Source: Bacteroidales bacterium
GTDB lineage: Bacteria > Bacteroidota > Bacteroidia > Bacteroidales > F082
DNA: 64,000 nucleotides
Assembly (NCBI GenBank): GCA_024709145.1
Contig: JANJXG010000023.1
Coordinates: 1-64,000, forward strand
Direction: 5' to 3'
Part shown: positions 17,261-54,777 of the stretch, piece after piece
Numbering within the stretch: position 1 is the stretch's first letter
Layout of the letters: each line of letters begins with the position of its first letter
Position numbers and translations under genes: made by a program
Notes under the pieces: generated by a model
What the model saw: only the letters and a program-made list of their open reading frames with translations
Database searches by the model: none
What the model was told of the DNA's origin: nothing

Positions 17261-17294
17261 TTTTTGATTTTGCTTTGAAAGAGTACTAACTTTG
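17261..17294 (+). promoter_or_regulatory. Promoter of the T9SS protein gene at 17331
   Basis: TTTTTG (17261-17266), 20 nt, TAACTTTG (17287-17294): a near-perfect Bacteroidota -33/-7 pair, about 36 nt ahead of the ATG. Confidence 0.65.
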
Positions 17295-17330
17295 ACTTCA
17301 AATTTGATTACTCACTTAAAAAAAACGTCT

Positions 17331-18431
17331 ATGAAAAAAATCTACTTTCTTTTCATTTCCATGGTCTTAGGTATGGTTCAGCTATTCGGACAGGCTGAGT
17401 TCAACACGGGCAGCATGATTGTGAACGTAAACACTTATGGCCGTGTGCGCTTGTCAACGCCTGATGCTGTGCGCCATCTTCAGCGTGCTTCCATTTTGGT
17501 TGGAACGCCATCGGGCCAGGTTTTTGATTACAACGAAGACTCTGAAGAAAACCAGGCACCGGAACTGGTCACACCACCCAGTTGGGGCGATTTCGAACTA
17601 TTCGGGTCGTTCGACAACACCTACTCTAACAATCCTCCGGATGTTTTGGTGGGTCTGAATGCTTATGGCTGGACCAACAAGACTTTTACAGTGCTCAAAT
17701 TCAATGTAAAAAACATTGGAACAACAGCCATGACTGCAACAGTGGGACTCGACATTATTCCCGAACTGGCTATGGAGTATGGTTTTGACACCGTGACTTA
17801 TGACGCTTCGACCGGTGTGGTTCGTTTTCACCGCGGAACGGATATGAATATGGGCATGAAGCTGCTTTCAACCAGTTTTACTTCACTCACTTCCTTTGAA
17901 TGGTTTGATGGCTATATGACGGATGCCGGCTATTGGGGATGGATGAATTCGGGTGGACTTCAGGCCCGGTATGTTTCGAATACAGCTGATGGCCCGGTAA
18001 CAATCACAGCGCAAGCACCAGAAGTGATTAACCCAAATGAAACGATGGATGTGTACTATGCCTTTGCCCTTGGCACCAATCAATCAGCGATGCTTGCAGC
18101 CATTGCTGAAGCCCAACAGAAATTTGATGATCTTTTCAGTGGTTTGGGCGATATTGCAGCCAATCCCAATGCTTTGCGACTCGGCTACAACCATCCAAAT
18201 CCTTTCAACGGGCAAACCACCATCAGTTATCATCTGCCAACCGGCGGTCAGGTAACGCTGAAAGTGTTCGATCAGTTGGGCAACGAAGTGGCTGTTGCGG
18301 TGAATGCCTCACAGGCAGCCGGACTGCACAGTGTTGATTTCGATGCAACCGGAATTGCTCCCGGTATTTATTATTACACACTCATTTTCAATGAGAAACG
18401 CATCACCAACAAAATGATTATTTCGAAATAG
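17331..18431 (+). CDS. Secreted protein with T9SS type A sorting domain
   Basis: 366 residues from the ATG at 17331 (MKKIYFLFISMVLG signal, cleavage near FGQA). The body is beta-rich, of unknown family, with segments such as GYMTDAGYWGWMNSGG and PEVINPNETMDVYYAFALG that also occur in secreted surface proteins of the phylum. Residues ~285-366 form a T9SS C-terminal domain: NHPNPFNGQTTISYHLP, GQVTLKVFDQLGNEV, GLHSVDFDATGIAPGIYYYTL and the terminal KMIISK. The protein is therefore predicted to cross the outer membrane through PorV/PorU and be anchored or released. It has its own promoter and a strong terminator. Function unknown. Confidence 0.85.
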   Translation: MKKIYFLFISMVLGMVQLFGQAEFNTGSMIVNVNTYGRVRLSTPDAVRHLQRASILVGTPSGQVFDYNEDSEENQAPELVTPPSWGDFELFGSFDNTYSNNPPDVLVGLNAYGWTNKTFTVLKFNVKNIGTTAMTATVGLDIIPELAMEYGFDTVTYDASTGVVRFHRGTDMNMGMKLLSTSFTSLTSFEWFDGYMTDAGYWGWMNSGGLQARYVSNTADGPVTITAQAPEVINPNETMDVYYAFALGTNQSAMLAAIAEAQQKFDDLFSGLGDIAANPNALRLGYNHPNPFNGQTTISYHLPTGGQVTLKVFDQLGNEVAVAVNASQAAGLHSVDFDATGIAPGIYYYTLIFNEKRITNKMIISK

Positions 18432-18508: not shown

Positions 18509-19720
18509 TTAAAGCTTGATCCAAACAATTTGCATGGCGTGAGGGCTGACACCGGTCACCCAGTCTTCGAGGTTTGAGCCGTCGAGGTTTGAACGAATAA
18601 TCTTGCCGTCGGGGGCAGAATTGGAAATTTTGTATCCCCAGAACAACTTATTGCGTTTTTGGTCGATGGCAAGACCCCAGGTGGCTTTGCTGCCATAATC
18701 GCCAATTTTAGAGAGGCCTGAACCATCCAGGTTGCACATATAGATGCCATTTTCTTCGACCGGCGATGGTGTTGAACCATAAATAGCCATGTAGGCTTTT
18801 CCGGTCTCAAAATTGATTTCAAGGGCAGTTCCGTCAATATCAACCACATGTTCGGTCAGGCCACTACCATCGAGGTTTACCGACCAGTAACCACCCGTAA
18901 AATCAGTTTTATCATTTACCAGATAGATTTTCTGGGTCACCGGATCATATTGCATGTCGATGGGATATTCGGGGCGGATGCCATCAGTACTGATAAATAC
19001 CTCAGCGTTACTGCCATCAAGGTTGCATCGGTAGATGCCACCAGGTCGGCCCCAATAGAGTTTATCGCCAATCACCATAAGGGCTTCGGGTGAGTCAACG
19101 ATTTCTTGTCCGGGAACAGTTACGTCAAGGATTTTCTGTGGATTTTTACCGTCCGCATCGAAGCTGTAAATCACACCAAGGCTGTAATCAGAGACAAACA
19201 CTTTGCGTGAAGCCGAATCGGCTACAATGCCATAAGGCCGCGAGAAAGTAACAGCTTCAAAATCCTGCACAATGGGGGCTTCATCGTTCAGTACAACAAA
19301 ATGTGCCCCGCCGCCCGATGGGCTTCTGGAGGTAAAATAAAGCACTTGTGACTGACCGGCAAGGGGGTCTTTTACATTCACAGCAAGTGTTTTGACGGTG
19401 GTATTGTAGTGAACATCGTTCACCGGCGTACAGGTGAGTTTAACGGAGTAAATCCCCGGGGTCTCAAACTGTATCACAGGATTTTCAAGGGTAGAAGTGA
19501 TGCCATTGCCAAAATCCCAGAGGTAACTTTTCGCATTGAGCGACTTATTGGTAACAGTGATCTCGCAGGGCGCATTGCCGTTGTTCGACAAAGTGAAGGT
19601 GAAATCGGCCTGTGTGCTGGCAGGCGGGTTGCCAAGTTCATACTTTTCACAGGCAGTTATCCCTAAAAATAAAGGAATAACGAGCAGAATATTCAGGATT
19701 GTATTTTTCATTGTATTCAT
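18509..19720 (-). CDS. PKD-domain / beta-propeller lipoprotein (probable surface partner of SusCD)
   Basis: 403 residues. Signal with lipobox ITAC (C24). Residues ~35-115 form a PKD domain (KSYLWDFGNGITSTLENP, IQFETPGIYSVKL). Residues ~125-403 form a six-bladed-propeller-like region of YWTD/NHL type with repeated NLDGSN/NLDGSG strands (CNLDGSNAEV, VNLDGSGLTE, CNLDGSGLSK, SNLDGSNLED). It is the last gene of the cyanophycinase-SusCD operon, 6 nt after susD, the position usually held by SusE-like surface glycan or substrate-binding lipoproteins. A role in binding the target polymer at the cell surface is inferred from position. A terminator follows. Confidence 0.82.
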   Translation of the reverse strand: MNTMKNTILNILLVIPLFLGITACEKYELGNPPASTQADFTFTLSNNGNAPCEITVTNKSLNAKSYLWDFGNGITSTLENPVIQFETPGIYSVKLTCTPVNDVHYNTTVKTLAVNVKDPLAGQSQVLYFTSRSPSGGGAHFVVLNDEAPIVQDFEAVTFSRPYGIVADSASRKVFVSDYSLGVIYSFDADGKNPQKILDVTVPGQEIVDSPEALMVIGDKLYWGRPGGIYRCNLDGSNAEVFISTDGIRPEYPIDMQYDPVTQKIYLVNDKTDFTGGYWSVNLDGSGLTEHVVDIDGTALEINFETGKAYMAIYGSTPSPVEENGIYMCNLDGSGLSKIGDYGSKATWGLAIDQKRNKLFWGYKISNSAPDGKIIRSNLDGSNLEDWVTGVSPHAMQIVWIKL

Positions 19721-19726
19721 TGTTAA

Positions 19727-21064
19727 TCAATAACCTGGGTTTTGCTGCATTTTTTTATTTGTTTGCATTTCGCTGAGTGGTATAGGGAACAGGGTAAACT
19801 TAGGATCGATTGCAAGTACATCGACAGCACGTCCGGTGCGCACGAGGTCGTTCCAGCGGTGGCCCTCAAAGGCAAACTCAAGCCGACGTTCGTTTTCGAT
19901 GGCCAGTTTCAATGAAGGGATGTCGGCGGCCTCAGTATCCGGCAAGCCAGCGCGATTCCTGATTATGTTGAGGTTGTTTTGAATTGCTGCCACATCACCA
20001 TTTGTATAAGCAAGTGCTTCGGCCTGAATGAGGTACATTTCGGCAAGGCGCAAAACATACACGCGGTCGACACCCCCTGACACATCGTTGTATTTGGAAC
20101 CGTAAGGATTGTTTTTCTCATCGAAACGAATGGTGGAACCCAATCGCTGGTCGGCGGGATCAAAAGCTGCGATCAAAGCTGCCGAAGGAGCAACTTCATA
20201 TCTTCCGTTGAGGTCGCGGGTGTAGTAATACTGAGCCAGCCTGTTAAAGTTTTGAATGTCATAAACGATTTCAAAAATAGATTCACTGCTGTTGACAGCC
20301 GGATCAAAAAGTTCGGCATAGGTAGTTGCCAATCCGGGTAGAAAAGCAATCACATCCGACGCCATTTGCCTCGCTTTGGCAGCAAAAGCAGCATCGTTGG
20401 TGGCATGAAACTGGGTGAGATAAATCCGTGCAAGCAAGGCCTTGGCGCTTGTGCTGTTGGCTCTTCCCACTGTGCCCGTATGCGTGAGCAAATCAATTGA
20501 AGCCTCCAGATCACTGATTACACCGGCATAAACCTCTGTCAGGCTGCTTTTAGGCAAATCAATGTTGCTGAGGTCGAGGGTAGGCTCAATCCGGAGCGGT
20601 ACACCACCGAAATAGTTGGCAAGATAAGCGTGCATCAGAGCCCGGATAAACAAGGCTTCACCCTGTACACTGTTTTTGCCGGATGGAGATCCGTATGGTA
20701 TTTGCGGCAATTTATAAAGGATATTATTAACCCTGTTGATCACATCATAAGCAGCGCTCCACATGCCATCGGTAATGGCATTGTCGGCAGGGATTGGCTT
20801 ATTGGGAATCTGGCCATAATCCTGAGTTGTTCCGGTCCACACCAGGTTATCCGCAGCCAGGTCTGCGATGATAGCGGCATTCCGGCCATAGAGGCCAACA
20901 GCCTGCAAACCGCTGTAGGCACCAATAATGGCCCTTTCGACCCCGGTGCTGTCTTTAAGTGCAATATCGCTTGATACAGAGGCTGATGGATTGACTTCCA
21001 ATACTTTATTACAGGAAGAAATCAGCGTGGATAAAGCCAGGAGCAGAAATATTAATTTTTTCAT
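19727..21064 (-). CDS. SusD/RagB-family outer-membrane lipoprotein
   Basis: 445 residues from ATG 21064 (MKKLIFLLLALSTLISSC, lipid cysteine 18); an ATG at 21073 (MNDMKK) is an alternative. SusD features: CNKVLEVNPSASVS directly after the lipobox, IIGAYSGLQAV, MWSAAYDVINRVNNIL, the TPR-like ALFIRALMHAYLANYFGGVPL, and the C-terminal YVLRLAEMYLIQAEA and ENERRLEFAFEGHRWNDLVRTGR. SusD proteins cap the SusC barrel and capture substrate. The gene follows susC by about 10-19 nt and precedes the PKD lipoprotein by 6 nt. Neighbouring cyanophycinases suggest a peptide-like rather than a glycan substrate. Confidence 0.95.
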   Translation of the reverse strand: MKKLIFLLLALSTLISSCNKVLEVNPSASVSSDIALKDSTGVERAIIGAYSGLQAVGLYGRNAAIIADLAADNLVWTGTTQDYGQIPNKPIPADNAITDGMWSAAYDVINRVNNILYKLPQIPYGSPSGKNSVQGEALFIRALMHAYLANYFGGVPLRIEPTLDLSNIDLPKSSLTEVYAGVISDLEASIDLLTHTGTVGRANSTSAKALLARIYLTQFHATNDAAFAAKARQMASDVIAFLPGLATTYAELFDPAVNSSESIFEIVYDIQNFNRLAQYYYTRDLNGRYEVAPSAALIAAFDPADQRLGSTIRFDEKNNPYGSKYNDVSGGVDRVYVLRLAEMYLIQAEALAYTNGDVAAIQNNLNIIRNRAGLPDTEAADIPSLKLAIENERRLEFAFEGHRWNDLVRTGRAVDVLAIDPKFTLFPIPLSEMQTNKKMQQNPGY

Positions 21065-21083
21065 GTCATTCATTTTTTTAGGA

Positions 21084-23990
21084 TTAAAGTCCAAGATTGA
21101 TTCCAACCATGATAGTTCGCGATTGTGGATAAGTGAAGAAATCGGTTCCCATCACCACATTGTCGTTGCTGTAATAATTCACTTCAGGGTCCATGCCTGT
21201 GTAGGCGGTAAAGGTGAAGAGATTTTGTCCGGAGACGTAAATTCTGGCCGTTTTAAGCTTCACAGGTTTCAGCAGTTGCTGCGGGAAGTTATAGCCCAAT
21301 GTCACGCTTTTAATGCGCATAAACGAGCCATTTTCGATAAAACGCGATGATTTGAGCTGATCACCTTCTTTGGGGATATCGGTAACATCGCCTGGTTGTT
21401 TCCATCGATCGGCCATAAATGCCAGTTGGTTGTCCTCGCCTATTCCCGATGCCAGGTAAATATTGGTTCCGTTGAAAATGTCATTTCCTGCCACACCTTG
21501 GAGGAAAATGGAGAGGTCGAAATTTTTGAAGCCAAAAGAATTGGTGATGCCAAAGGTGAAATCAGGATTCGGGTTACCGATTTTTTTGCGGTCATCAGCC
21601 GTGATTTCCCCATCGTTGTTCAGATCTTCGTACACCAGTTTGCCGGTTGTAGGGTCAACCCCAAGACAAACATATCCGAAGAAAATCCCGGTAGGTTCTC
21701 CTTCCTGCACCCTGTTTCCGCCGCGACCCTGATCGTCGATGGGCTGGCCTTCGTAAAGGCTGAGAACTTTGTTGCGGTTGGCGGCAAAGTTGATGGAAGT
21801 ATTCCAGGTAAAATCACTTTGAATGTTTTGTGTGTTGAGCAACAATTCGATTCCCTTATTTTCGAGTTCACCAATGTTTGAAGTAATGGTGGTGTATCCT
21901 GTTGAAGGAGGTAAAGGTCTGTCGAGCAGCAGATCGCGGGTGTGATTATAATACAGGTCGGCCACCAGACTGATGCGATCTTCAAACAAGCCGAGATCGA
22001 AGCCAAAACCAGTTTGCAAGGTTGTTTCCCATTTCAGGTCGGGATTGGGAAGTTGGGTTGGCGCAATACCCGGACGCTGACCATAGTTAAACCCGCCGCC
22101 GTAAAGACCAAGAGAAGCAAAATCGCCGATGCCGTCGTTGCCGGTCATCCCAACACTGGCGCGCAACTTGAGTTCGCTTACTGCTTCAGCATTTTTCATA
22201 AACGACTCTTCATTCACGCGCCAGGCTACCGATGCAGCCGGGAAATAACCATAGCGGTTGTTTTTTCCAAACTTTGAGGAGCCATCGGCCCGTGCGGTGA
22301 GGGTAAAGATGTATTTGTATTTGTAATTGTATTTGAACTGACCGAAATAAGAATTCATGCCCCGTTCGAGTCCATAAGCCGAAGCGGCCCTGATGGTTCC
22401 GGCTGAGGTGATGTATTCGAAGTTTTCATTTGGAAAATCAATGGCTTCAATATAGGTGTTTCTTCTGGCGTATTTTTCAAGACTATAGCCTGCAAGTGCT
22501 TCAAAGTGATGGGTTTTGTCGATCGATTTCATGTATTGCAGCACATTGTTGGTGATCAGGTTACTCACATAAGAAGTTCCTTCAATGCCCAGACCATTGT
22601 ATTTCAGCCCCTGAGCCACGGTGATTGGGTCATATTCGTGTTCGCGGAGCAGGTATTGATCGGCACCCCATTTGCTGGTAAAAGTAAACCCGTTCAGGAA
22701 TTTATATTCCAGGAAAATATTGCCGTTGTTACGGTTAGTAAAAGCCTGGTTGATGGTATGATCGATGATCGCCACCGGGTTGGCATAAGGGCCATCTTCA
22801 TTGTAAGTTCCGTCTGGATTAAAAACAGGATAGATGGCCGGAATAGAAAGAGCATTCGGGAGCGGGCCATAAAGGGTTTGGTCGCCTTCCACACGGTCGT
22901 TTTTCGAATAGCTCATCATGATACTGGCACCGATAGTGAGGTTGTCGAGGAGTTTGTGATCGATGTTCAGACGGCCTGTGTATCTGTCGAAACGGGTCGA
23001 TTTAACAGTACCATCCTGAATGAAGTAATTACCCGAAATAAACATCCTTGTCTTGTCGTTGCCGCTGCTCACCGAAAATTCGGTGTTTGAAGTAGGGGCA
23101 GTTTGCAGAATTTCTTTCATCCAATCGGTATCAACACCCTGCACATTGGTACCCTTGTATTCGTTCCATTGGGCAGCATTCATCAGTTTTGGCAAACGTT
23201 CGGCGGGCAGAGTCTGCCAACCGTAAGAAGAACTGAGGGTGACGCTGGTTTTTTGATATCCTCCTTTTTTGGTAGTGATCAGCATAACACCGTTTGAAGC
23301 TCTGGCACCATATATAGCTGTGGCCGATGCATCTTTGAGAAAAGTAATTGATTCGATATCGTTGGGGTTGATGTCGGAAAGGGCATCGATTTCCTGGCCG
23401 CTGTAGCCAATTTGGCCAAAGCTGCCAGTGATGACTGGCATACCATCTACCACAACGAGAGGTTGATTGGTAGCATTGATAGAGCTTCCGCCTCTGAGCT
23501 TGATCGAGTTTTGTCCGCCCGGGGTTCCAGAGTTGATGTTAATGGTAACACCGGCAGCCTTGCCCTGAAGTACCCCTTCGATGGTTCGCATCGGGGCATA
23601 TTTCAGCTCATCCTCTCTGACGACGCCTACCGAATTGGAAATGAGTTTTTTACTTGAAGTGCTGTACCCAACGACCACTACTTCGCCGAGGTCGATTTTG
23701 TTTTCCTGCATTACCACATTGATCATCATTCGCTTGTTAACAGGCAATTCGAGGGGTTGCATTCCCACGTAGCTGAACAGCAGGGTGGCGTCAGCAGGGG
23801 CTTGGAGTTTGTAAACACCGTCGAGGTCGGTGGTTGTTCCCTGGGTAGTACCTTTCACCTGTACGGTTACACCGGGAATCGGCTGTTTGTCAGCCGCAGA
23901 AGTGACCGTTCCGGTGACAGTAACCGACTGGGAAAAAGCCGAGCCAATGAACAATGTCAGGACGAGAATCAATAAGACATTTTTTTTCAT
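21084..23990 (-). CDS. SusC/RagA-family TonB-linked outer-membrane transporter
   Basis: 968 residues from the ATG at 23990 (MKKNVLLILVLTLFIGSAFS signal). Order: carboxypeptidase-regulatory-like domain (~22-100, VTVTGTVTSAADKQPIPGV..LQAPADATLLFSYVGM), linker with LGEVVVVGYSTSSKK (SusC TonB-box-like), plug (~120-235: LQGKAAGV, IKLRGGSSINATNQPLVVVDG, SITFLKDASATAIYGARASNGV), then the 22-strand barrel ending in a C-terminal aromatic strand. It imports oligomers with TonB energy together with SusD. At 968 residues it is on the compact side for SusC. It lies 25 nt behind the cyanophycinase stop, in the same operon. Confidence 0.95.
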   Translation of the reverse strand: MKKNVLLILVLTLFIGSAFSQSVTVTGTVTSAADKQPIPGVTVQVKGTTQGTTTDLDGVYKLQAPADATLLFSYVGMQPLELPVNKRMMINVVMQENKIDLGEVVVVGYSTSSKKLISNSVGVVREDELKYAPMRTIEGVLQGKAAGVTININSGTPGGQNSIKLRGGSSINATNQPLVVVDGMPVITGSFGQIGYSGQEIDALSDINPNDIESITFLKDASATAIYGARASNGVMLITTKKGGYQKTSVTLSSSYGWQTLPAERLPKLMNAAQWNEYKGTNVQGVDTDWMKEILQTAPTSNTEFSVSSGNDKTRMFISGNYFIQDGTVKSTRFDRYTGRLNIDHKLLDNLTIGASIMMSYSKNDRVEGDQTLYGPLPNALSIPAIYPVFNPDGTYNEDGPYANPVAIIDHTINQAFTNRNNGNIFLEYKFLNGFTFTSKWGADQYLLREHEYDPITVAQGLKYNGLGIEGTSYVSNLITNNVLQYMKSIDKTHHFEALAGYSLEKYARRNTYIEAIDFPNENFEYITSAGTIRAASAYGLERGMNSYFGQFKYNYKYKYIFTLTARADGSSKFGKNNRYGYFPAASVAWRVNEESFMKNAEAVSELKLRASVGMTGNDGIGDFASLGLYGGGFNYGQRPGIAPTQLPNPDLKWETTLQTGFGFDLGLFEDRISLVADLYYNHTRDLLLDRPLPPSTGYTTITSNIGELENKGIELLLNTQNIQSDFTWNTSINFAANRNKVLSLYEGQPIDDQGRGGNRVQEGEPTGIFFGYVCLGVDPTTGKLVYEDLNNDGEITADDRKKIGNPNPDFTFGITNSFGFKNFDLSIFLQGVAGNDIFNGTNIYLASGIGEDNQLAFMADRWKQPGDVTDIPKEGDQLKSSRFIENGSFMRIKSVTLGYNFPQQLLKPVKLKTARIYVSGQNLFTFTAYTGMDPEVNYYSNDNVVMGTDFFTYPQSRTIMVGINLGL

Positions 23991-24015
23991 TTTTTGGTTT
24001 ATTATGGTTAGTAAA

Positions 24016-25278
24016 TCAATCATGCAATGGGGTCAAATCAACCGTTACTGTCTTAAGACTTAGGCTCATATTCAACAGCGTATAGGTTCGCCGGCCATTT
24101 TGGGAATCCCGGCCAAAAGCCTTGCTTTGTCCGGTTTTGGCAAGGCTGATTAAAAAGGCGTTGTTGTGAGTGTAAAAATTGAGGCTGGAAACAGTTGTGG
24201 CATGCTGATTGTCCATCAGGTGGCGTGTGGCCAATCGCAGGAACGAAGGAGCTGCCGCAAACATCCCGCCCGGGAAAGGTTCCGCAGTGTCAAATTTCTC
24301 TTTCCCCTTGAGATCCGACTTGCCGGGGGCAGGCACAACGGTGTGATCCAGAAAACTGTAAGTATCACCCGATTCAAGGTAATGGACAGCAAGATCATTC
24401 ACCGATGTAAGGGTGTCCATCATGGAAAATACAGCTTTTTTTGCATCAAAAATGGTGACCCCGGCAGCGCCGGCCACTATCATTTTATCTTCTTTTCCAT
24501 AATAGACAAGGGCGGTATTTTCGTCAATTCCAAAAGCCATGGGCTGAGCTGTGTATGCCATTGCTACGATGAGCCTGCCTGTTCGTGAACGGGCATGGAA
24601 ATGCTGATCGACCAATCCATGCGGAAAAAATCCCAGGCCTTTCGTAAGAAGAACACCCTGGTGATCAGGCAGATCTTCACCGGGCCGGCTTGTTTTGGCA
24701 CCATAAATGAGGGCATCCATGCTGTTTCCGTTTCCGATCATGGGGTCGCTCATGATTGCAGCACCTGCGCTGGTGCCTCCAACGAGGCCCCCCTTCTCAA
24801 ACATATCCCACACTGCATCAAGCACTGCAGTGCGGCTGCCATCAGGCAGATAAAGCGTTTTGATGATGCGAAGCTGGTCACCACCAGAAAACCAAACACA
24901 ATGGCTTTGTCTGACTATGTCGGCAAGGGCTTCATCGTTTCCGTTATGAAGCCATGTGGCTTCGTTAACATCAAGGGTACTGTCGTCGTCTTCAATCGCC
25001 ACCGGGATCAGGTGGATGTTTTCAGGCTTTGCTCCAAAGCGTTGCAAACCCATACTGAAATAAGCAAAAGTTTGCGCTGCTACGCCACTGGCAGCCGGAA
25101 TAACCGAGATGACAGCCTGCTCAGCTCCACCGGACAGTCTGAGAATTTCTTCAAAAATTTCTTTGTTATCACTTTCAAGGCCACCACCAACAATCATCAG
25201 GTTGCCCTGTGCTGAAGCGGACCGGGGAAGCAGGAAGGTGGAATAAAGCAAAAACAGCCATACAAGATTCCTGGTCAT
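24016..25278 (-). CDS. Secreted cyanophycinase-like S51 peptidase
   Basis: 420 residues with an N-terminal signal (LVWLFLLYSTFLLPRSASAQ). Peptidase S51 features are intact: LMIVGGGLES, VWFSGGDQ (Q135), LVGGTSAGAAIM (nucleophile S170), GLVDQHFHARSR (H226) and AFGIDENTALV (E253), i.e. the Ser-His-Glu set of cyanophycinase CphB. The GLGFFPHGLVDQHF stretch and GIDE are diagnostic of cyanophycinase rather than of the smaller peptidase E. The ~100-residue C-terminal tail has no recognised domain. The predicted reaction is cleavage of cyanophycin to beta-Asp-Arg dipeptides. It sits 11 nt after the second S51 gene and 25 nt before susC. Confidence 0.92.
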   Translation of the reverse strand: MTRNLVWLFLLYSTFLLPRSASAQGNLMIVGGGLESDNKEIFEEILRLSGGAEQAVISVIPAASGVAAQTFAYFSMGLQRFGAKPENIHLIPVAIEDDDSTLDVNEATWLHNGNDEALADIVRQSHCVWFSGGDQLRIIKTLYLPDGSRTAVLDAVWDMFEKGGLVGGTSAGAAIMSDPMIGNGNSMDALIYGAKTSRPGEDLPDHQGVLLTKGLGFFPHGLVDQHFHARSRTGRLIVAMAYTAQPMAFGIDENTALVYYGKEDKMIVAGAAGVTIFDAKKAVFSMMDTLTSVNDLAVHYLESGDTYSFLDHTVVPAPGKSDLKGKEKFDTAEPFPGGMFAAAPSFLRLATRHLMDNQHATTVSSLNFYTHNNAFLISLAKTGQSKAFGRDSQNGRRTYTLLNMSLSLKTVTVDLTPLHD

Positions 25279-25289
25279 AAGAGAATGTT

Positions 25290-27254
25290 TTACAGTTTAA
25301 TAAACTTTACAGAAAAGCTCTCGCCTGAGCTGAGGTCATGCAGATGAACAACATAAGGTCCGGGAGCCAACCAATCAATGGGGATGTTCGTGAAGTTGGT
25401 ATATGCCTTACCCTGACTTAAAAGTTGTCCCTTAAGATCTGAAATCTGCCAGTTGCAGGGGTAGATATCCAGTTTCAGGTGGAGCTGAGCGATGGCAGGA
25501 TTTTGAAGGAGTATTACCTTTGATTTCAGGGTAGATTCCGGTACATCAGAAGCATCGGTAGTTCCCATGAGGTAAGGTTGACTTTCATCAGTGAATGAGA
25601 GCGTTAGCTTATCAAAACCGGCTTCCATGCGGGGCACGGCGCTGCTGCTTCCACTTCCTGTTTGTGTAACGAGGCCTGCCATCCCTCCTTCGTTGCGCAG
25701 GATCATTACCGGATGCTGACCATAGCCAAGCAGTGTTGTTTTCCCATCCAAAGGCATGATTTTCAAGTAATTTTTGGCGGTGAGCCAAATGCCGTAACGC
25801 AAGGTGTCGATGGCCATGGCATAAGGAACAGCCGTCGCTGTGTTTTCATAGATATCAGCGTGAAAATAAGTGTTTGTCATTAACATGCTATGCTGCAACA
25901 TGCCCAGTCCACGGCTGAATTCAAGTTCACCATACCAGGAGGCAAGCTCGGTGTAGAAATTGTCGACCACCGTTTTTCCGGCAAAACGGGCATCATCGCC
26001 GGCAAAAGCTGCAATCATCCCCCTTTTTTTAAGGCGCTGTTCCAGAAGTTGTCCGTTGGAGGTAGTTAAAAAAGTATTCAAATCATCGGTGGCATTGTCA
26101 ACAAAAAGAATTTTGACAGCTGAATTGATTTTTTCGGCAAGCTGTAAATTATTCCCATTGGCCTGATTAAGTAAAAAAACGTCTATCTGTGGTGCACCAT
26201 GTTGAATCAATTGGTTTTTAAATAATTGTGCTGTATTCTCGTTGCCAGAGAGCAATAGCACAGGATCGTCCGGCGTGCCGCATTGGCTTACCAGGTTACC
26301 AAGCATTGCTGTATTGTTTGACACGGTGTTTCCTCCACTTGCCAACAGAATAAAATCACCTGTTTCTTCCAAAAGAGAAGTTTGCAGGTACCGATCCAGC
26401 GTGGGAGTGGTGATTGCTCCGGTGTTAAAATCATAGGTGCAGCCCTGAATGAGTTGTGTGAGCCGGATTCCCGGATGAATTAATTTATTGTTGTTGAGTA
26501 AAAAAGGTTCGTTAAAATTGAAAAAATTGGCACAACCCGTTCCGTAAACCGTACCCAGTCGGTTCTCGTCGATGGTCATACAAGTCATATCATCCATACC
26601 CAATCCGGTGAGATTTTGTCCGTGATCGAATTGATATTTGGCCAAAAAACCTGCCAAACGGGCAAAACGGGCTCTTTCAGAAAAGTGGGTATCAAAAATA
26701 TATCCCGGAAAAAGACTAAAAAAATCGTCTTCCAGGGTCATGTAAGAATTGTTTGGGTTTTCGATGGCTTCATAAGGATATACGGTTCCGTTTTGGGCGC
26801 TAAAAATCACCGAAGAAAGGATGTGCATACCCGCTGAAGTTCCGGCAAGTGTTCCGCCCTGCGCAAAAAGTTCTTCAGCAAGCTGTTGCAATTTTGTGTT
26901 TTTATAAAACCGGTAATAATCATATTGATCGCCACCTCTGAAAAAAATTACCTGATAGGTTTTGAGACTATCGTAGAGTACCTGACTGTCAGCACTGTCG
27001 CGGGAAGCGACACCGAATTCGCGGGCGAATGCTGCCCCGCAATACTGTGTAAGGTAATTGGCCAGGCTACCGGTTGATGCGCCAATCACGGCAACCCTTT
27101 TTCCTTCGGCAGCCCAGCGGTAAGCAGGTACGCTCCAGCCATTTGCTCCGTTTTTTTCGGAACCGCCACCTACAAGCAATAACCTGCCCTGTTGGGTATG
27201 GGCATCAAATCCAAACCAGAGTAAAAGCAGGAAAGTCGTAATGGCAGTTTTCAT
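25290..27254 (-). CDS. Secreted S51 (cyanophycinase-like) protein with a degenerate second S51 domain and T9SS tail
   Basis: 654 residues; signal peptide 1-20 (cleavage before QQGR). Domain 1 (~22-260) is a complete S51 domain: LLLVGGGSEKN, IFFRGGDQ (Q110), LAGTSAGMHIL (S140), IFDTHFSERAR (H190) and TIDENRLGTV (E230). Domain 2 (~298-520) repeats the fold without the nucleophile elbow: FILLASGGNT, PVLLLSGNENTAQLF, KILFVDNATDD, and AAFAGDDARF in place of GTSAG. Residues ~575-654 form a T9SS-type sorting domain (LHLKLDIYPCNWQISDLKGQLLS...PGPYVVHL..FSVKFIKL). Cyanophycinases are dimers, so this may be a fused pseudo-dimer with one active site, exported to the cell surface. First gene of the operon; promoter at 27277-27306. 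Confidence 0.88.
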   Translation of the reverse strand: MKTAITTFLLLLWFGFDAHTQQGRLLLVGGGSEKNGANGWSVPAYRWAAEGKRVAVIGASTGSLANYLTQYCGAAFAREFGVASRDSADSQVLYDSLKTYQVIFFRGGDQYDYYRFYKNTKLQQLAEELFAQGGTLAGTSAGMHILSSVIFSAQNGTVYPYEAIENPNNSYMTLEDDFFSLFPGYIFDTHFSERARFARLAGFLAKYQFDHGQNLTGLGMDDMTCMTIDENRLGTVYGTGCANFFNFNEPFLLNNNKLIHPGIRLTQLIQGCTYDFNTGAITTPTLDRYLQTSLLEETGDFILLASGGNTVSNNTAMLGNLVSQCGTPDDPVLLLSGNENTAQLFKNQLIQHGAPQIDVFLLNQANGNNLQLAEKINSAVKILFVDNATDDLNTFLTTSNGQLLEQRLKKRGMIAAFAGDDARFAGKTVVDNFYTELASWYGELEFSRGLGMLQHSMLMTNTYFHADIYENTATAVPYAMAIDTLRYGIWLTAKNYLKIMPLDGKTTLLGYGQHPVMILRNEGGMAGLVTQTGSGSSSAVPRMEAGFDKLTLSFTDESQPYLMGTTDASDVPESTLKSKVILLQNPAIAQLHLKLDIYPCNWQISDLKGQLLSQGKAYTNFTNIPIDWLAPGPYVVHLHDLSSGESFSVKFIKL

Positions 27255-27276
27255 TCGATTGCGCTGATGTAATGAG

Positions 27277-27306
27277 CGAAATTAGGGAGATTTTTCCACA
27301 AGCAAA
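27277..27306 (-). promoter_or_regulatory. Promoter of the cyanophycinase-SusCD operon
   Basis: Minus strand: TTTG (27303-27306), 18 nt, TAATTTCG (27277-27284), one mismatch to TAnnTTTG, 22 nt before the ATG at 27254. No obvious operator repeat is seen in the 91-nt divergent region. Confidence 0.45.
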
Positions 27307-27315
27307 AAAAAACCA

Positions 27316-27323
27316 TAATTTTG
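27316..27323 (+). promoter_or_regulatory. -7 box for iadA
   Basis: TAATTTTG matches TAnnTTTG, 22 nt before the iadA ATG. The -33 region (TTTTTCC at ~27291) is weak. It is back-to-back with the operon promoter, so one regulator could serve both. Confidence 0.45.
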
Positions 27324-27345
27324 AGAAAAATAAACCCAGAAAGAT

Positions 27346-28473
27346 ATGATTACACTATTCAGGAATGCGCTGGTGTTTGCCCCGCAGGCCGAGGGGAAAA
27401 AAGATGTGCTGGTTGCCGGAAAAACAATCATTGCTGTCAAAGACGTGATTCCGGTGCCGGAAGGCCTTCAGGTGGAGGTGGTTGATTGTGAAGGGATGAA
27501 GCTCGTTCCGGGGCTGGTAGATGCCCACGTACACATAACCGGAGGAGGAGGCGAAGGAGGGCCGGGAACACGGATGCCCGAGCTGGAAATTCCGATGATG
27601 ATCGCGGGCGGTGTAACCACAGTTGTTGGTTGCCTGGGAACCGATGGCATCACACGCAATGTTGACAGTGTGCTGATGAAAGTGAAATCGTTGCGGGCCA
27701 ACGGTATGTCTGCCTGGATGTATACAGGCGCCTATCAGGTGCCTCCGCCGAGCATCACAGGTGATATCAAGCGGGATATTGCCCTGTTTGAAGAAGTGAT
27801 AGGCCTTGGCGAGATTGCCGTTTCTGATCACCGATCTTCTGTACCAGCCACCGAAGAGCTTGCCAGACTGGCTGCTCATACCCGCGTAGCCGGAATGATT
27901 GGCGGAAAAGCAGGCATCGTCAATGTGCACATGGGCGATGCCACCGACCCTTTTCGTCCGATACACCATGTGGTTGCCAACAGTGAATTGGGATATAAGC
28001 AATTCGTTCCAACCCATTGTAACAGAAACGCTTATATATTTGAGGACGCTAAGGAATATGGAAAAAAAGGCTATGTAGACATCACCACGAGTTCGTGGCC
28101 CTATTATACCGATGAGGAAATAAAACCATCCACTGCACTCAGGCTATTGCTCGAAAATGGCGTTCCGCTTAAACACATCACCTTTACGTCTGATTCTTGC
28201 GGCTCTTTGCCGGGCTTTGATCCGGAGACCGGAAAACTGGTGAAAATAGAAATGGGACTCCCCTCCTCTATTCTCAGGGAAATTAAAGATGCTGTGAATG
28301 AAGAGAATTTACCCTTTGAAATTGCGTTGCAGGTTGCGACTTCCAATCCGGCCGACATTTTGCAGCTAAGCGGCAAAGGGTATGTGAAGGAAGGTTGCGA
28401 CGCCGACTTGGTTGTACTTGACAATGAGTACAATATCGTGCGTGTAATGGCAAACGGTAAATTTGTCGGATAA
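27346..28473 (+). CDS. iadA: Isoaspartyl dipeptidase (beta-aspartyl peptidase)
   Basis: 375 residues, no signal peptide, hence cytoplasmic. Amidohydrolase/IadA motifs: VDAHVHITGGGGEGGPGTR (metal H61, H63; substrate-binding E70), SDHRS (160-164), VNVHMGD (H195), PTHCNRNAYIFEDA (H224), TFTSDSCGSLPGFD (D283). Compared with the E. coli enzyme from memory, the position of the carbamylated lysine (K162, just before xAxSDHRS) is E156 here, so a glutamate may bridge the two zincs. IadA hydrolyses beta-Asp-X dipeptides, the product class of cyanophycinase; the divergent operon encodes two such enzymes plus SusCD. The M28 gene follows after 6 nt. Confidence 0.94.
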   Translation: MITLFRNALVFAPQAEGKKDVLVAGKTIIAVKDVIPVPEGLQVEVVDCEGMKLVPGLVDAHVHITGGGGEGGPGTRMPELEIPMMIAGGVTTVVGCLGTDGITRNVDSVLMKVKSLRANGMSAWMYTGAYQVPPPSITGDIKRDIALFEEVIGLGEIAVSDHRSSVPATEELARLAAHTRVAGMIGGKAGIVNVHMGDATDPFRPIHHVVANSELGYKQFVPTHCNRNAYIFEDAKEYGKKGYVDITTSSWPYYTDEEIKPSTALRLLLENGVPLKHITFTSDSCGSLPGFDPETGKLVKIEMGLPSSILREIKDAVNEENLPFEIALQVATSNPADILQLSGKGYVKEGCDADLVVLDNEYNIVRVMANGKFVG

Positions 28474-28479
28474 CAAAGA

Positions 28480-30018
28480 ATGATCCTGAAAATGCCTTTT
28501 ATCCGACTTTTTATTATTTTGCTGTGGCTGATTTTCTTCAGTCAAACCCTCTGTTCCCAGGAAAAAGCCCCTTTTACCTCCCCTCAGCAGGATGAATTTC
28601 TCCCGTTGCTCCGGCAGCTGTCTGCTCCAGAAATGGAAGGTCGTGAAACTGCAACGAATGGTGGAAAAGCAGCCGCCCGTTTTCTCGCCGAAAAGATGAG
28701 AGAAATGGGACTTCAACCGATCGGAGAGTCTTTTATGCAGCCATTCGGCCTACTCAAAACAACGCTCATCACGGCCAGTATCGACACCGGTGAAAACATT
28801 TCAGAGAAGTTATTGTATTTCAACGACTTTGCTGCTATTGGTTGTCCCTCAGATCAAAAACTGAGTGCAGAGCTTGTTTTCGCAGGTTATGGTCTCATCA
28901 GCAGCGACAGTGTTTACAACAGTTACCGTGAGCTGGAAGTTCGCGGCAAAATAGTCTTAGTCATCGATGGACTTCCCGGTGAAGCAGATACCACAGCATT
29001 GATGTGGAAAACCTTTGGTAAAGAATTTCTTAAGCAAGAAAGCGGACTCAAAACCAAGCTTCAGCACGCACTCCACCAGGGGGCCAAAGCCTTGTTGCTG
29101 GTTCAGGCCGGCAGCGACACTTCTGCGCTCATGACCTGGATGACCACCCTCACCGGCAACGACAGGGCGCAATATCCTGACGGAGATTATCTTTTTCCCA
29201 TGGATACAACCCGGCAATGTATCCCGGTTTTTTTGCTTCACCATGAGGCCCGAAGGCTTATGGGCAAGCACCTAACAATGGATTTCGATCAGGCAGCGCT
29301 GCATCTGGCTGAAAAGCCTTTTTTAACAGCAGTTACCGGAAAAAAAGCGAGTTTGCAAACTGATCAGGAATTGGTTGAATTGCATGCCTGCAATGTCATT
29401 GGAATGATCAGAGGAACCGACAGCACCAAAACCGTGGTAATTGGCGGTCACTATGACCATTTGGGCAAGCGTGGTGATCAGATTTACTATGGTGCCGACG
29501 ACAACGCATCAGGAACATCAGGCGTATTGACATTAGCCAAAAAGTGGATGCAAAGTGGCATCAGGCCAAGTCAAAACCTTGTGTTTGCCTGTTGGGATGC
29601 CGAAGAAAAGGGGCTTTTCGGAAGCAGCTATTTCGTTGATAACCTTGCAAAATCATTGAGGCTGCCAACGCTTTACCTCAATATGGATATGATTTCGCGC
29701 AGTGCCGAAAGTGATACACTTGAAAAGGTGATCAGCATTGGCATCAGGAAAGGAGACAGCAGTTTGCGTCAGCTGGCCAACGGCTGCAATCAGTTGTCGG
29801 GCAATCCATTTGAGTTGGATATTTGGGATGTGAGCGGACATTCGGGCAGCGACTACGCTGCTTTTGCATCAGCAGGCGTTCCGGTGATGACATTTTTCTC
29901 CGGCTTTCACCAGGACTATCACAGTCCGCGCGATCGCTTTGAGACTGTCAATCCCGGGAAGATGGCTGCCATTCTCAAACTCATTCAGGATTGTATGTGG
30001 AATCAGGCAAAACCTTAA
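28480..30018 (+). CDS. Secreted M28-family zinc aminopeptidase with PA-like insert
   Basis: 512 residues (ATG 28480; ATG 28492 possible). Signal peptide: MPFIRLFIILLWLIFFSQTLCSQ. An N-terminal cap region is followed by a protease-associated-like domain (~115-280: AELVFAGYGLISSDS, EVRGKIVLVIDG, HQGAKALLLVQ). M28 catalytic part: VIGGHYDHLG, YYGADDNASGTSGVLTLA, CWDAEEKGLFGSSYF, MDMISR and HQDYHSPRDRFE, i.e. all five zinc ligands and the catalytic Glu. It probably trims amino acids from peptides in the periplasm or outside. Coupled to iadA by a 6-nt gap, so it probably belongs to the same peptide-use programme. Its last 4 nt overlap the end of the convergent EnvC-like gene. Confidence 0.92.
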   Translation: MILKMPFIRLFIILLWLIFFSQTLCSQEKAPFTSPQQDEFLPLLRQLSAPEMEGRETATNGGKAAARFLAEKMREMGLQPIGESFMQPFGLLKTTLITASIDTGENISEKLLYFNDFAAIGCPSDQKLSAELVFAGYGLISSDSVYNSYRELEVRGKIVLVIDGLPGEADTTALMWKTFGKEFLKQESGLKTKLQHALHQGAKALLLVQAGSDTSALMTWMTTLTGNDRAQYPDGDYLFPMDTTRQCIPVFLLHHEARRLMGKHLTMDFDQAALHLAEKPFLTAVTGKKASLQTDQELVELHACNVIGMIRGTDSTKTVVIGGHYDHLGKRGDQIYYGADDNASGTSGVLTLAKKWMQSGIRPSQNLVFACWDAEEKGLFGSSYFVDNLAKSLRLPTLYLNMDMISRSAESDTLEKVISIGIRKGDSSLRQLANGCNQLSGNPFELDIWDVSGHSGSDYAAFASAGVPVMTFFSGFHQDYHSPRDRFETVNPGKMAAILKLIQDCMWNQAKP

Positions 30019-47912: not shown

Positions 47913-47946
47913 CAAATATACTACGAGTTCAGTCCGTGAGTTCAAA
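47913..47946 (-). promoter_or_regulatory. Promoter of the DUF4175-mnmG operon
   Basis: Minus strand: TTTG (47943-47946), 22 nt, TATATTTG (47913-47920); predicted 5' UTR of roughly 55 nt. Confidence 0.5.
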
Positions 47947-47965
47947 TTTACATAGATACATCCTT

Positions 47966-49933
47966 ATGAAAAAGTTGTTTTTAACGTTATTTACAGTTTC
48001 TTCCCTGTGGCTTTATGCGCAGCAAAATGAGCTTCATACACACGACAGGTATTGCCGTCACTATCCGCAAGAAACAAGTATTCCCTCTTTTGCCTGGCGC
48101 AGCGACTGGCAAAGTCCACGCATTTTTGACTATGATGTTACATTTTATTTTCTTGATATTGAAGTAAATAACATGAACATAAATATCTCCGGTACAGTTG
48201 AAATTCATGGAAAAGTTACTGCTGCAACCCTTGATACCTTTGCATTTGAATTAATCCCGCAAATGAATGTTGCCACTTTTACTTTCAACGGGCAAACTTA
48301 TACCAACTTAAACAGGGTGGGTGATAATGTCCTTGTTGAAGTATCTCCCCTATCACAGGGTGATCAATTTGTTGCTTCCATCACTTACGGAGGTACGCCA
48401 CCCACAGGTGGATTTTTTGCCGGCGTAACCAATGCCTACAGCAGCGTTTTTCAAAAAAATGTAACCTGGTCGCTTTCTGAACCCTTTGCTGCCAAAAGTT
48501 GGTTTCCATGCAAACAAGATTTACCCGACAAGGCTGATTCTGTATGGGTCTTTTTAACCACTCCTGTCGGTACGATGGCCGGATCGCAGGGTTTACTAAC
48601 CAATACAACCATTCTGCCAAGCGGAAAACCCCGCTATGAATGGAAATCCAATTATCCGATTGCTTATTATCTCATCTCATTCGCGGTTGCAGATTACCAG
48701 GAGTATAATGTGTATGCAAAACCTGCAGCACTTCAGGGCGATTCTGTTCTCGTACAAAATTATGTATACAACCACCCCAATTTCCTGCCGCAATATCAAA
48801 ACAGCATCAATGCAGTAGTGCCCATGATTGAACTATTTTCGGATATTTATACCTTATATCCTTTTCACGAAGAAAAATACGGACACTGTATCACACAACT
48901 TGGCGGAGGTATGGAACATCAAACGATGACAACGCTTGGTAGTCTGGGTTTCAATCTGGTGGCACACGAATTGGGCCACATGTGGTTTGGCGACAACGTA
49001 ACCTGCGCTACATGGAGCGATATCTGGATCAACGAGGGCTTTGCAACCTACAGCAATTATCTGGCTCAGGAAATGATCATCGGATGGAGTGGCGGACAGT
49101 CTTTTATGATTGGTACTCAAAACAACGTAATTTCCCAACCCGGTGGCAGCGTTTATATTCCACCTTCAGAGATTACCCAGGAAAATGTTTGGAGGATTTT
49201 CAACGGCCGTCTATCTTACGATAAAGGAGCGGCAATTATCCACACCCTTCGACATGAAATTAACAACGATGAATTGTTTTTTCAGCTGATGAATCAATTC
49301 CAAACAGTTTTCGCTGATAGCACAGCCACTGGAGAAGATTTTAAAATGGTCGCCCAACAAGTAACTGGAATGGATTTTAATCAGTTTTTCGATCAGTGGT
49401 ATTATGGCGAAGGGTATCCAAAATACAATATCGAATGGTATATGTTCGACAACAAACTGCACCTCGACGTAACCCAAACACCTTCCTCTTCGACCCCATT
49501 GTTCAAAATGACACTTGATTATAAATTAACATACAATGACGGGACTTCCGAAGTGGTTCGACTCTTTCAGGATGCCAATTTCAATCAATTTCAGATTCCT
49601 GTTGATAAAACGGTGACAAACATTACGGTGGATCCCGATAACTGGACTTTTGAAAAGGTAAACAGTATCATCGTTTCTGTGCCACAACAACACAATCCGG
49701 TTCATTTCACCTACGGCCCAAATCCGGTTTCAGATAGGTTGACTGTTTATCTGACAAACGAAAATAATGAACCTTATCAACTTCAAATCAGTGATTTAAG
49801 TGGTAAAATTATCTTTGAAGAAAAAGCATACGGAAGTATGTATCAGGTTAACCTTGGTCAACTGAGAAAAGGAACCTACATTCTCAGGCTCACGAACGGC
49901 AGACAGGATTTTTCACGAAAAATTGTAATTTAA
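47966..49933 (+). CDS. Secreted M1-family metallopeptidase with T9SS sorting domain
   Basis: 655 residues from the ATG at 47966 (signal MKKLFLTLFTVSSLWLYAQ). M1 features: GGMEH (~314-318, the GxMEN exopeptidase motif with H), HELGHMWFG (334 on) and the third zinc ligand in WINEGFATY (E357). The N-terminal beta saddle domain precedes (~55-250). The C-terminal ~75 residues (FTYGPNPVSDRLTVYL, LQISDLSGKIIFEEKAY, LRKGTYILRLTNG, SRKIVI) are a T9SS type A domain, so the enzyme is exported to the surface. It trims N-terminal residues from extracellular peptides. Confidence 0.93.
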   Translation: MKKLFLTLFTVSSLWLYAQQNELHTHDRYCRHYPQETSIPSFAWRSDWQSPRIFDYDVTFYFLDIEVNNMNINISGTVEIHGKVTAATLDTFAFELIPQMNVATFTFNGQTYTNLNRVGDNVLVEVSPLSQGDQFVASITYGGTPPTGGFFAGVTNAYSSVFQKNVTWSLSEPFAAKSWFPCKQDLPDKADSVWVFLTTPVGTMAGSQGLLTNTTILPSGKPRYEWKSNYPIAYYLISFAVADYQEYNVYAKPAALQGDSVLVQNYVYNHPNFLPQYQNSINAVVPMIELFSDIYTLYPFHEEKYGHCITQLGGGMEHQTMTTLGSLGFNLVAHELGHMWFGDNVTCATWSDIWINEGFATYSNYLAQEMIIGWSGGQSFMIGTQNNVISQPGGSVYIPPSEITQENVWRIFNGRLSYDKGAAIIHTLRHEINNDELFFQLMNQFQTVFADSTATGEDFKMVAQQVTGMDFNQFFDQWYYGEGYPKYNIEWYMFDNKLHLDVTQTPSSSTPLFKMTLDYKLTYNDGTSEVVRLFQDANFNQFQIPVDKTVTNITVDPDNWTFEKVNSIIVSVPQQHNPVHFTYGPNPVSDRLTVYLTNENNEPYQLQISDLSGKIIFEEKAYGSMYQVNLGQLRKGTYILRLTNGRQDFSRKIVI

Positions 49934-53337: not shown

Positions 53338-54777
53338 CTAAGGATATTCAACCCAGATAACGGAATTGCTCTCTCCATATTCGTTTTCTTCCCAAAGTGG
53401 ATTTGCCTCATCAGGAATCCACTTTCCGTCAACTATAAATTTGTAACTATATCTTCCGGGAGGAAGATACAGCGCTAATTGCCAGCTTCCATTCCTGAAT
53501 GTCATAGGATAGCCTTCGTGTGACCATCGGTTAAAACTTCCGCTCAAACGGATCGTTTTTGCATTGGCATATCCATCCAGTTTGAATAGTTTATTGGGCT
53601 TAAAAGAAATAAAGGAATTGGCGTATTCTCCGGTTCCGACTTTATCAGGATTTGCCGGATCGGTTATCCACTGCCCGTCAACGATATATTTGTATTCATA
53701 ATACCCTGGAGCCAGATGATAAGCTATCTTCCATCCGTCAGCAATTTGATCCATGGCTAATTCCTTGGTATTCCATCCATTAAAACTTCCCGATAGGTAA
53801 ACTTCCTTTGCCTGCCTGAATCCTTTAAGGTGAAAAACCAGGGTGTCGCCCAAGCCAAGAAAAGAATTCAGATTACCCCTGCCATCAGGTCGAATGATCC
53901 GGTTTTCAGGATCATTCATCCAGACACCATCCACAATAAATTTGTAGGCATGGGTTCCTTCCTTCAAGTAAAGTGGTAGTTCCCAGCCATACTCAGTTTT
54001 TTTCATTTTCAGTGAATGGTCGTGCCAGTTGTTGAAACTGCCGGCCACCATCACCATTTTTGCTTCGGTATAGCCTTTAAGTTTAAAAGTAAAATTGGGG
54101 CAGTAAACCACCGAATTGTAGCCGTTGTTGCCATCACGCTCCTTGTTATTGTTGAAAGGATCAGTATACCAACGCCCATCAACAACAAATTTGTAGGTGT
54201 ATTTTCCAACCGGCAACGGCAAACACAGAGTCCAGCCTTTACCGGTAAACTGCATGGGCGTGGAGATTGTACTCCAGTTGTTGAATGTACCTGCGATAAA
54301 CACTTTGGAGGATTTTTCGAAACCGGCCAAAAAGAAACAGGCTCTTCCTTTCAGATACCGGAATGCTTGATCGCTGTTGAAACTATTACCACCGGAAACT
54401 AAAATATCTGGTTTTATATCAGCTAATTGTGTGTCATGATAGGTTTCATTCAAAATCAACATACGGCTAATTTTGCCATCGGTTGTATCCCTTTGTAGTT
54501 CTTGCGACAAAACAACAAACTGATCGTTGTTGCGATGCAGTTTCCAGGCTGTGTGGGTATTAAAATAGTCAAAATTCCTGTTGAAAAGCTGCTTTACCAT
54601 CACACTGTCAAGATCGTAAAGTGAAGAAAATTCTGCCTGCTGCTGCTTGTTCCACTCAAGGTTTACCTTCAACACAAACTTGCCGTCGAGCAGGCTGCCT
54701 GCTTCGGCGGGATCTTGCTGTCCATGGCAATGAACAGCAGCAGCTATCAGCAAAAAGATACAGATCAACGTTTTCAT
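53338..54777 (-). CDS. Secreted protein with four tandem CBM48/AMPK-beta-like domains
   Basis: 479 residues. Signal 1-19. Residues ~20-140 unknown; then four repeats of the early-set/glycogen-binding fold, each with (A/S)G(T/S)FNxW at 162, 245, 329 and 412, and YK(F/Y)(I/V)VDGxW at 195, 278, 362 and 445, giving a strict 83-84-residue period. No catalytic domain is attached, which is unusual because CBM48 units normally accompany alpha-glucan enzymes. It may bind alpha-glucan or serve as a structural array. Its ATG overlaps the stop of the aspartic-protease-like gene by 4 nt, so the two are translationally coupled. Confidence 0.85.
   Translation of the reverse strand: MKTLICIFLLIAAAVHCHGQQDPAEAGSLLDGKFVLKVNLEWNKQQQAEFSSLYDLDSVMVKQLFNRNFDYFNTHTAWKLHRNNDQFVVLSQELQRDTTDGKISRMLILNETYHDTQLADIKPDILVSGGNSFNSDQAFRYLKGRACFFLAGFEKSSKVFIAGTFNNWSTISTPMQFTGKGWTLCLPLPVGKYTYKFVVDGRWYTDPFNNNKERDGNNGYNSVVYCPNFTFKLKGYTEAKMVMVAGSFNNWHDHSLKMKKTEYGWELPLYLKEGTHAYKFIVDGVWMNDPENRIIRPDGRGNLNSFLGLGDTLVFHLKGFRQAKEVYLSGSFNGWNTKELAMDQIADGWKIAYHLAPGYYEYKYIVDGQWITDPANPDKVGTGEYANSFISFKPNKLFKLDGYANAKTIRLSGSFNRWSHEGYPMTFRNGSWQLALYLPPGRYSYKFIVDGKWIPDEANPLWEENEYGESNSVIWVEYP

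Follow-up and report, generated by a model that had tools for sequence, protein, structure and literature searches.

The 64,000-nucleotide stretch of DNA analyzed here (the window; Bacteroidales bacterium, F082, assembly GCA_024709145.1, contig JANJXG010000023.1, positions 1–64,000 of the forward strand) very probably carries a cyanophycin utilization locus of Bacteroidota, organized like a polysaccharide utilization locus (PUL) and serving to scavenge external cyanophycin. Cyanophycin is a large nitrogen-storage polymer of cyanobacteria; to our knowledge, little is known about its uptake by other bacteria. The PUL-like cyanophycin system put forward in the initial annotation is well supported, since the linkage of its genes is conserved, the active-site residues are present, and the locus matches a published one; the part to be amended is the role of its two S51 peptidases, which are not equivalent, a surface location being predicted for S51-B and a periplasmic one for S51-A.

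Gene identities, residues, linkage, and predicted folds were computed here. Families were assigned by Pfam and NCBIfam scans, and signal peptides and lipoboxes were judged by eye. The features are:

17292..18431, plus strand: T9SS-tailed secreted protein, convergent to the lipoprotein (Por_Secre_tail)
18509..19720, minus strand: lipoprotein with a PKD domain and a YWTD-type propeller, presumed surface binding protein (Pfam PKD_4, lipobox ITAC, model)
19727..21106, minus strand: SusD-like surface lipoprotein, likely start 21073 or 21064 (PF07980, PF14322, lipobox ISSC)
21084..24023, minus strand: SusC/RagA-type TonB-dependent transporter, likely start 23990 (TIGR04056, SusC tree)
24016..25278, minus strand: S51-A, CphB-like (D-Q-H) cyanophycinase, 420 aa, export predicted (TIGR02069, residues)
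25290..27254, minus strand: S51-B, CphE-like (D-T-H) S51 peptidase, 654 aa, export predicted (Pfam S51, predicted fold, residues)
27255..27345, no strand: divergent intergenic stretch of 91 nt between S51-B and IadA (coordinates, sequence)
27346..28473, plus strand: IadA isoaspartyl dipeptidase, predicted cytoplasmic (TIGR01975, zinc/substrate residues)
28480..30018, plus strand: M28 peptidase, predicted exported, accessory (PF04389)

All seven ORFs that the initial annotation had placed at 18509–30018 were confirmed at their positions. The tight five-gene operon described there agrees with both coordinates and family scans: the minus-strand order is S51-B, S51-A, SusC, SusD, PKD lipoprotein, and the gaps calculated from the coordinates are 11 nt (S51-B/S51-A), 25 nt (S51-A/likely SusC start), 10 or 19 nt (SusC/SusD), and 6 nt (SusD/lipoprotein). 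IadA and then M28 follow on the plus strand, so that the proposed divergence from the operon also holds, with 91 nt separating S51-B from IadA. Both divergent promoters are presumably located in this stretch; promoter and terminator scans gave sites no more frequent than in shuffled sequences. The locus is of the SusCD kind: a SusC scoring over the family cut-off adjoins a SusD lipoprotein, and hydrolases are linked to them. None of the locus genes was found to encode a glycoside hydrolase, and no regulator was recognized adjoining the locus.

S51-A scores 169.4 bits against the cyanophycinase model TIGR02069 (cut-off 126.6) and has every catalytic and binding residue named for Synechocystis CphB, i.e., Ser132 for catalysis and Gln101, Asp172, Gln173, Arg178, Arg180, and Arg183 for binding (PMC3235067). 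Its Ser–His–Glu triad and binding set are complete (S170, H226, E253; Q135, D224, Q225, R230, R232, R235). The PDB entry matching S51-A best by sequence is "pseudo-CphB", where the same key residues are present, hence these residues alone do not prove that cyanophycin is the substrate. The match could be explained by a cyanophycin-like polymer, e.g., one with Lys or the product on which pseudo-CphB acts, and the occurrence of two S51 types suggests that the bond or the polymer comes in at least two forms; however, the residues of S51-A match true CphB equally well, and the published locus was assigned to cyanophycin, making such a substrate quite improbable. S51-A has only a Sec-like signal, with neither a lipobox nor a type IX tail, and is therefore placed more probably in the periplasm. 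In loci L050, L055, L056, and L058, where S51-A is short (~285 aa), cysteines resembling those of a lipobox seem to lie close to the N-terminus, unlike in the window protein; in the S51 tree, long-type S51-A proteins group separately.

The other S51 protein, S51-B, is of a different type, similar to CphE. It scores 73.3 bits against TIGR02069, under the cut-off, and 30.7 bits against Pfam S51, over the cut-off. The cyanophycinase residue set is complete (S140, H190, Q110, D188, T189, R194, R196, R199) except that Asp222 replaces Glu in the triad. In the AlphaFold model (mean pLDDT 87), the top fold matches are cyanophycinases (3en0, 7uqw, and 7uqv; TM by target 0.74–0.80), with PepE second; KaiC-like matches were set aside due to poor superposition, with rmsd over 20. 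Across the 44 locus proteins of a motif table, S51-A is always D-Q-H and S51-B always D-T/S-H, and the Arg-pocket residues are invariant; in the S51 comparison, S51-B forms its own clade. Similar to S51-A and M28, S51-B has a Sec-like N-terminus without a lipobox, and the C-terminus of its model matches the type IX secretion domains 8qb1 and 8glk. A Por_Secre_tail match is seen in nine of 13 members of the S51-B family, the window copy having no such Pfam match, and PorV scores well over its cut-off in the window genome. Judging from these signals, S51-B is probably sent to the cell surface via type IX secretion.

Several further features of this family and of type IX secretion were observed. 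A second domain of S51-B, at residues ~300–550, is of the alpha/beta type; it bears a conserved GDDARF-type motif and resembles a degenerate repeat of the S51 fold. In a Salinivirgaceae MAG (BM715; L097:9947-11905), S51-B is broken across two frames, and the adjoining SusC lies outside the S51-linked clade described below. Elsewhere in the window, a Por-tailed, M1-like aminopeptidase is encoded at 47936–49933 (plus strand), and 53338–54777 (minus strand) weakly matches a T9SS plug protein.

The transporter scores 874 bits against TIGR04056 (cut-off 368); it also matches RagA, less well than SusC homologs. The PKD/propeller architecture suggested for the lipoprotein was recovered in two parts: Pfam detects the PKD domain (PKD_4), and behind it the AlphaFold model (mean pLDDT 89.6) shows a YWTD-type propeller, with LRP/LDLR propellers as the top fold matches. 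This protein is presumed to bind the polymer.

The synteny of S51, SusCD, and iadA in other Bacteroidota, proposed in the initial annotation as a check, proved to be conserved. With S51-B alone as the query, 80 named loci were retrieved, plus whole genomes; in 66 named loci S51-B scores over 250 bits, many of them being shortened by contig ends, and the counts below do not represent independent events, as many related MAGs are included. Adjacent and on the same strand are S51-A and S51-B in 33/66 loci, SusC and SusD in 39/66, and SusD and the lipoprotein in 37/66; IadA adjoins S51-B in 29/66 (21 divergent, 8 on the same strand). Among the loci of at least 18 kb, 33 of 45 contain SusC and SusD, and 30 have S51-A as well. 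Since the window genome has 12 SusC genes over the cut-off in 3.8 Mb, ~6% of random genes are expected to have a SusC within 10 kb, and the observed linkage of S51-B with SusCD (33/45 loci, partly from related MAGs) is far above chance.

The linked set (S51-A, S51-B, SusCD, the lipoprotein, and IadA or IaaA) spans Bacteroidales, Cytophagales (Chryseolinea, Fulvivirga, Marivirga, Pseudochryseolinea), and Flammeovirga. The order in Cytophagales is S51-B, SusC, SusD, two lipoprotein-like genes, S51-A. An IaaA-type aminopeptidase is found in L104, L105, L207, and L208, and 22 loci encode a basic amino acid carrier of the YfcC/DcuC type. Longer SusC variants (~1050–1105 aa) are often accompanied by ECF sigma and FecR genes. 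S51-B is present at E < 1e-40 in 21 of 393 genomes, spread across the order; the plasmid search yielded nothing beyond distant partial S51 matches. The T9SS-tailed protein at 17292–18431 is convergent beside the lipoprotein in 11/66 loci, its relatives occur near S51-B in Ignavibacteria (L136, L138, L140), and it may be an unrecognized extra component of the locus. Other neighbors of S51-B in Ignavibacteria, of ~900 aa and 333 aa, were considered as cyanophycin synthetase and IaaA and rejected: the 333-aa gene is of the PorV type, an 820-aa gene is a TonB receptor, and a 921-aa gene has no NCBIfam match.

When 30 other SusC proteins were included in the tree, one clade (SH-aLRT 99) took in 26 of the 27 S51-linked SusCs, from both Bacteroidales and Cytophagales. 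Similarity to the window SusC had, in part, served to define the S51-linked set, and L097, L104, and L105 were excluded from it, so the clade may be less exclusive to S51 loci than it looks. A perfect clade in the first tree was dropped, as that group had been selected by similarity to the window SusC; upon addition of the 22 nearest background SusCs, one of the 27 (L111) fell outside. The L111 protein pairs with G297 (L207), which has IaaA, YfcC, and two S51 genes in its vicinity; hence, at least one "background" SusC is itself S51-linked. Given the single clade and the S51 genes near the L111 partner, SusC appears to have been inherited together with the S51 pair.

IadA, the sole match to its family in the window genome, scores 436 bits against TIGR01975 (cut-off 331), lacks a signal peptide, and has the zinc and substrate residues reported for the Escherichia coli and Leucothrix enzymes (H61, H63, E70, T99, E156, H195, H224, R227). 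M28 adjoins IadA in 16/66 loci and is accessory. In relatives, an M14 carboxypeptidase-like gene recurs beside M28/IadA in 20 loci (e.g., L072:4279-6963), as does, in 17 loci, an enolase-superfamily gene similar to o-succinylbenzoate synthase or N-acylamino acid racemase.

These peptidases bear on another possible function, the scavenging of isoaspartyl peptides from aged or decaying protein, where SusCD would be a RagAB-like peptide importer and S51 and M28 would trim peptides ahead of IadA. IadA and IaaA are indeed promiscuous toward beta-aspartyl dipeptides, the transporter does match RagA, and M28 here and M14 in relatives lie nearby; but the full cyanophycinase residue set of S51-A and its score above the curated cut-off, the invariance of the Arg pocket, and the joint retention across orders of two differing cyanophycinase-type enzymes, though not of M28, make this function unlikely, if slightly less so than a cyanophycin-like substrate. 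Overall, the points against cyanophycin are the pseudo-CphB likeness of S51-A, the score of S51-B under the cut-off with Asp for Glu, and the promiscuity of IadA enzymes; with these weighed in, we hold to cyanophycin with high confidence.

No cyanophycin synthetase (TIGR02068) scores over the cut-off in the window genome, which is 99% complete, the best partial match having 107 bits against the required 850; this fits an external source of cyanophycin. Cyanophycinase genes often lie beside cphA1, in Bacteroidota too, so the S51 genes might act on a reserve of the cell itself, with SusCD as an unrelated neighbor; the missing synthetase, the export signals on both S51 proteins, and the SusCD linkage kept across orders make this extremely improbable. 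In genome-wide checks, done one family at a time, the YfcC homolog was found on a different contig, and an arginine deiminase-like gene scored below the cut-off. A third S51 gene (C100), with the best Pfam S51 score in the genome, was rejected as a classical cyanophycinase, as its 242-aa product is of the PepE type and lacks the D-[QT]-H...R.R motif.

The initial annotation was aware of no description of this combination for cyanophycin; one had already been given. A cyanophycin utilization locus comprising cyanophycinases, iadA, and a transporter was described in Salinivirga cyanobacteriivorans by Ben Hania et al. (2017; doi 10.1111/1462-2920.13639), a study cited in both PMC10206079 and PMC6243061; of the two S51 proteins of this species, one has an added Por secretion domain (PMC6243061). 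In the window, too, genes for cyanophycinases, an isoaspartyl dipeptidase, and a transporter are linked, and one S51 protein is plain and the other of the type IX kind, the tail of S51-B being assigned by its fold match and by the nine of 13 family members. In the abstract of the Salinivirga study, the transport complex is reportedly called homologous to polysaccharide utilization loci. A probable Salinivirga genome (G715, locus L212) has S51-A–SusC–SusD–lipoprotein facing IadA–S51-B. Given this precedent and the shared genes, the window locus belongs to the Salinivirga-type kind. The two differ in that S51-B heads the operon and IadA diverges from it in the window, whereas IadA–S51-B is convergent at the lipoprotein end in L212; S51-A is of the long type (420 aa) in the window and short (293 aa) in L212; and M28 adjoins IadA in the window, with none seen in L212.

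CphE of Pseudomonas is an extracellular cyanophycinase with Ser171, His224, and Glu251, and Thr at the position of CphB Gln173 (PMC3235067). S51-B, also an S51 protein with predicted export, shares with it the D-T-H motif as well as the binding residues (Gln, Asp, and three Arg). It differs from CphE in its larger size (654 aa), in having the second domain along with a tail of type IX appearance, and in Asp for Glu as the third triad residue; no SusCD is reported alongside CphE in PMC3235067, whereas the S51-B operon contains it. With SusCD PULs and RagAB the locus shares the SusC/SusD pair, the extra surface lipoprotein, exported hydrolases, and, in some relatives, regulators (ECF sigma/FecR or a hybrid two-component system); in contrast to them, its hydrolases are peptidases of an isopeptide polymer. 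The core idea has thus been published before, and the window locus is a further, well-supported case of this known kind rather than a new system; what may be new are details, namely, that S51 enzymes of the D-Q-H and D-T-H types are paired, that the SusCs form a clade, and that the lipoprotein carries a propeller.

We infer the substrate, the localization, and the order of steps as follows, the surface and periplasm assignments being predicted from sequence. The polymer would be held at the surface by SusD and the PKD/propeller lipoprotein and trimmed there by the type IX-exported S51-B; the TonB-energized SusC/SusD would import dipeptides or short oligomers; in the periplasm, Sec-exported S51-A would cut oligomers down to beta-Asp-Arg; an inner-membrane carrier, possibly of the YfcC/DcuC type often encoded nearby in relatives and on another contig here, would move the dipeptide inward; and cytoplasmic IadA would split beta-Asp-Arg into Asp and Arg. 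More specifically, and with slightly less than even confidence, we suggest that an old, dedicated SusCD lineage imports short cyanophycin oligomers, not dipeptides alone, with cutting in two stages, by a type IX-secreted, D-T-H, CphE-like enzyme at the surface and a D-Q-H, CphB-like enzyme in the periplasm. In that case, membership of the SusC clade would identify cyanophycin scavengers in Bacteroidales and Cytophagales alike.

Generally, the conserved set of two S51 clades, the SusC clade, the propeller lipoprotein, and IadA or IaaA would allow cyanophycin scavengers to be recognized by sequence and would define a group of proteins for assay, and the locus would extend the substrates of SusCD systems to a non-glycan, non-ribosomal polymer.
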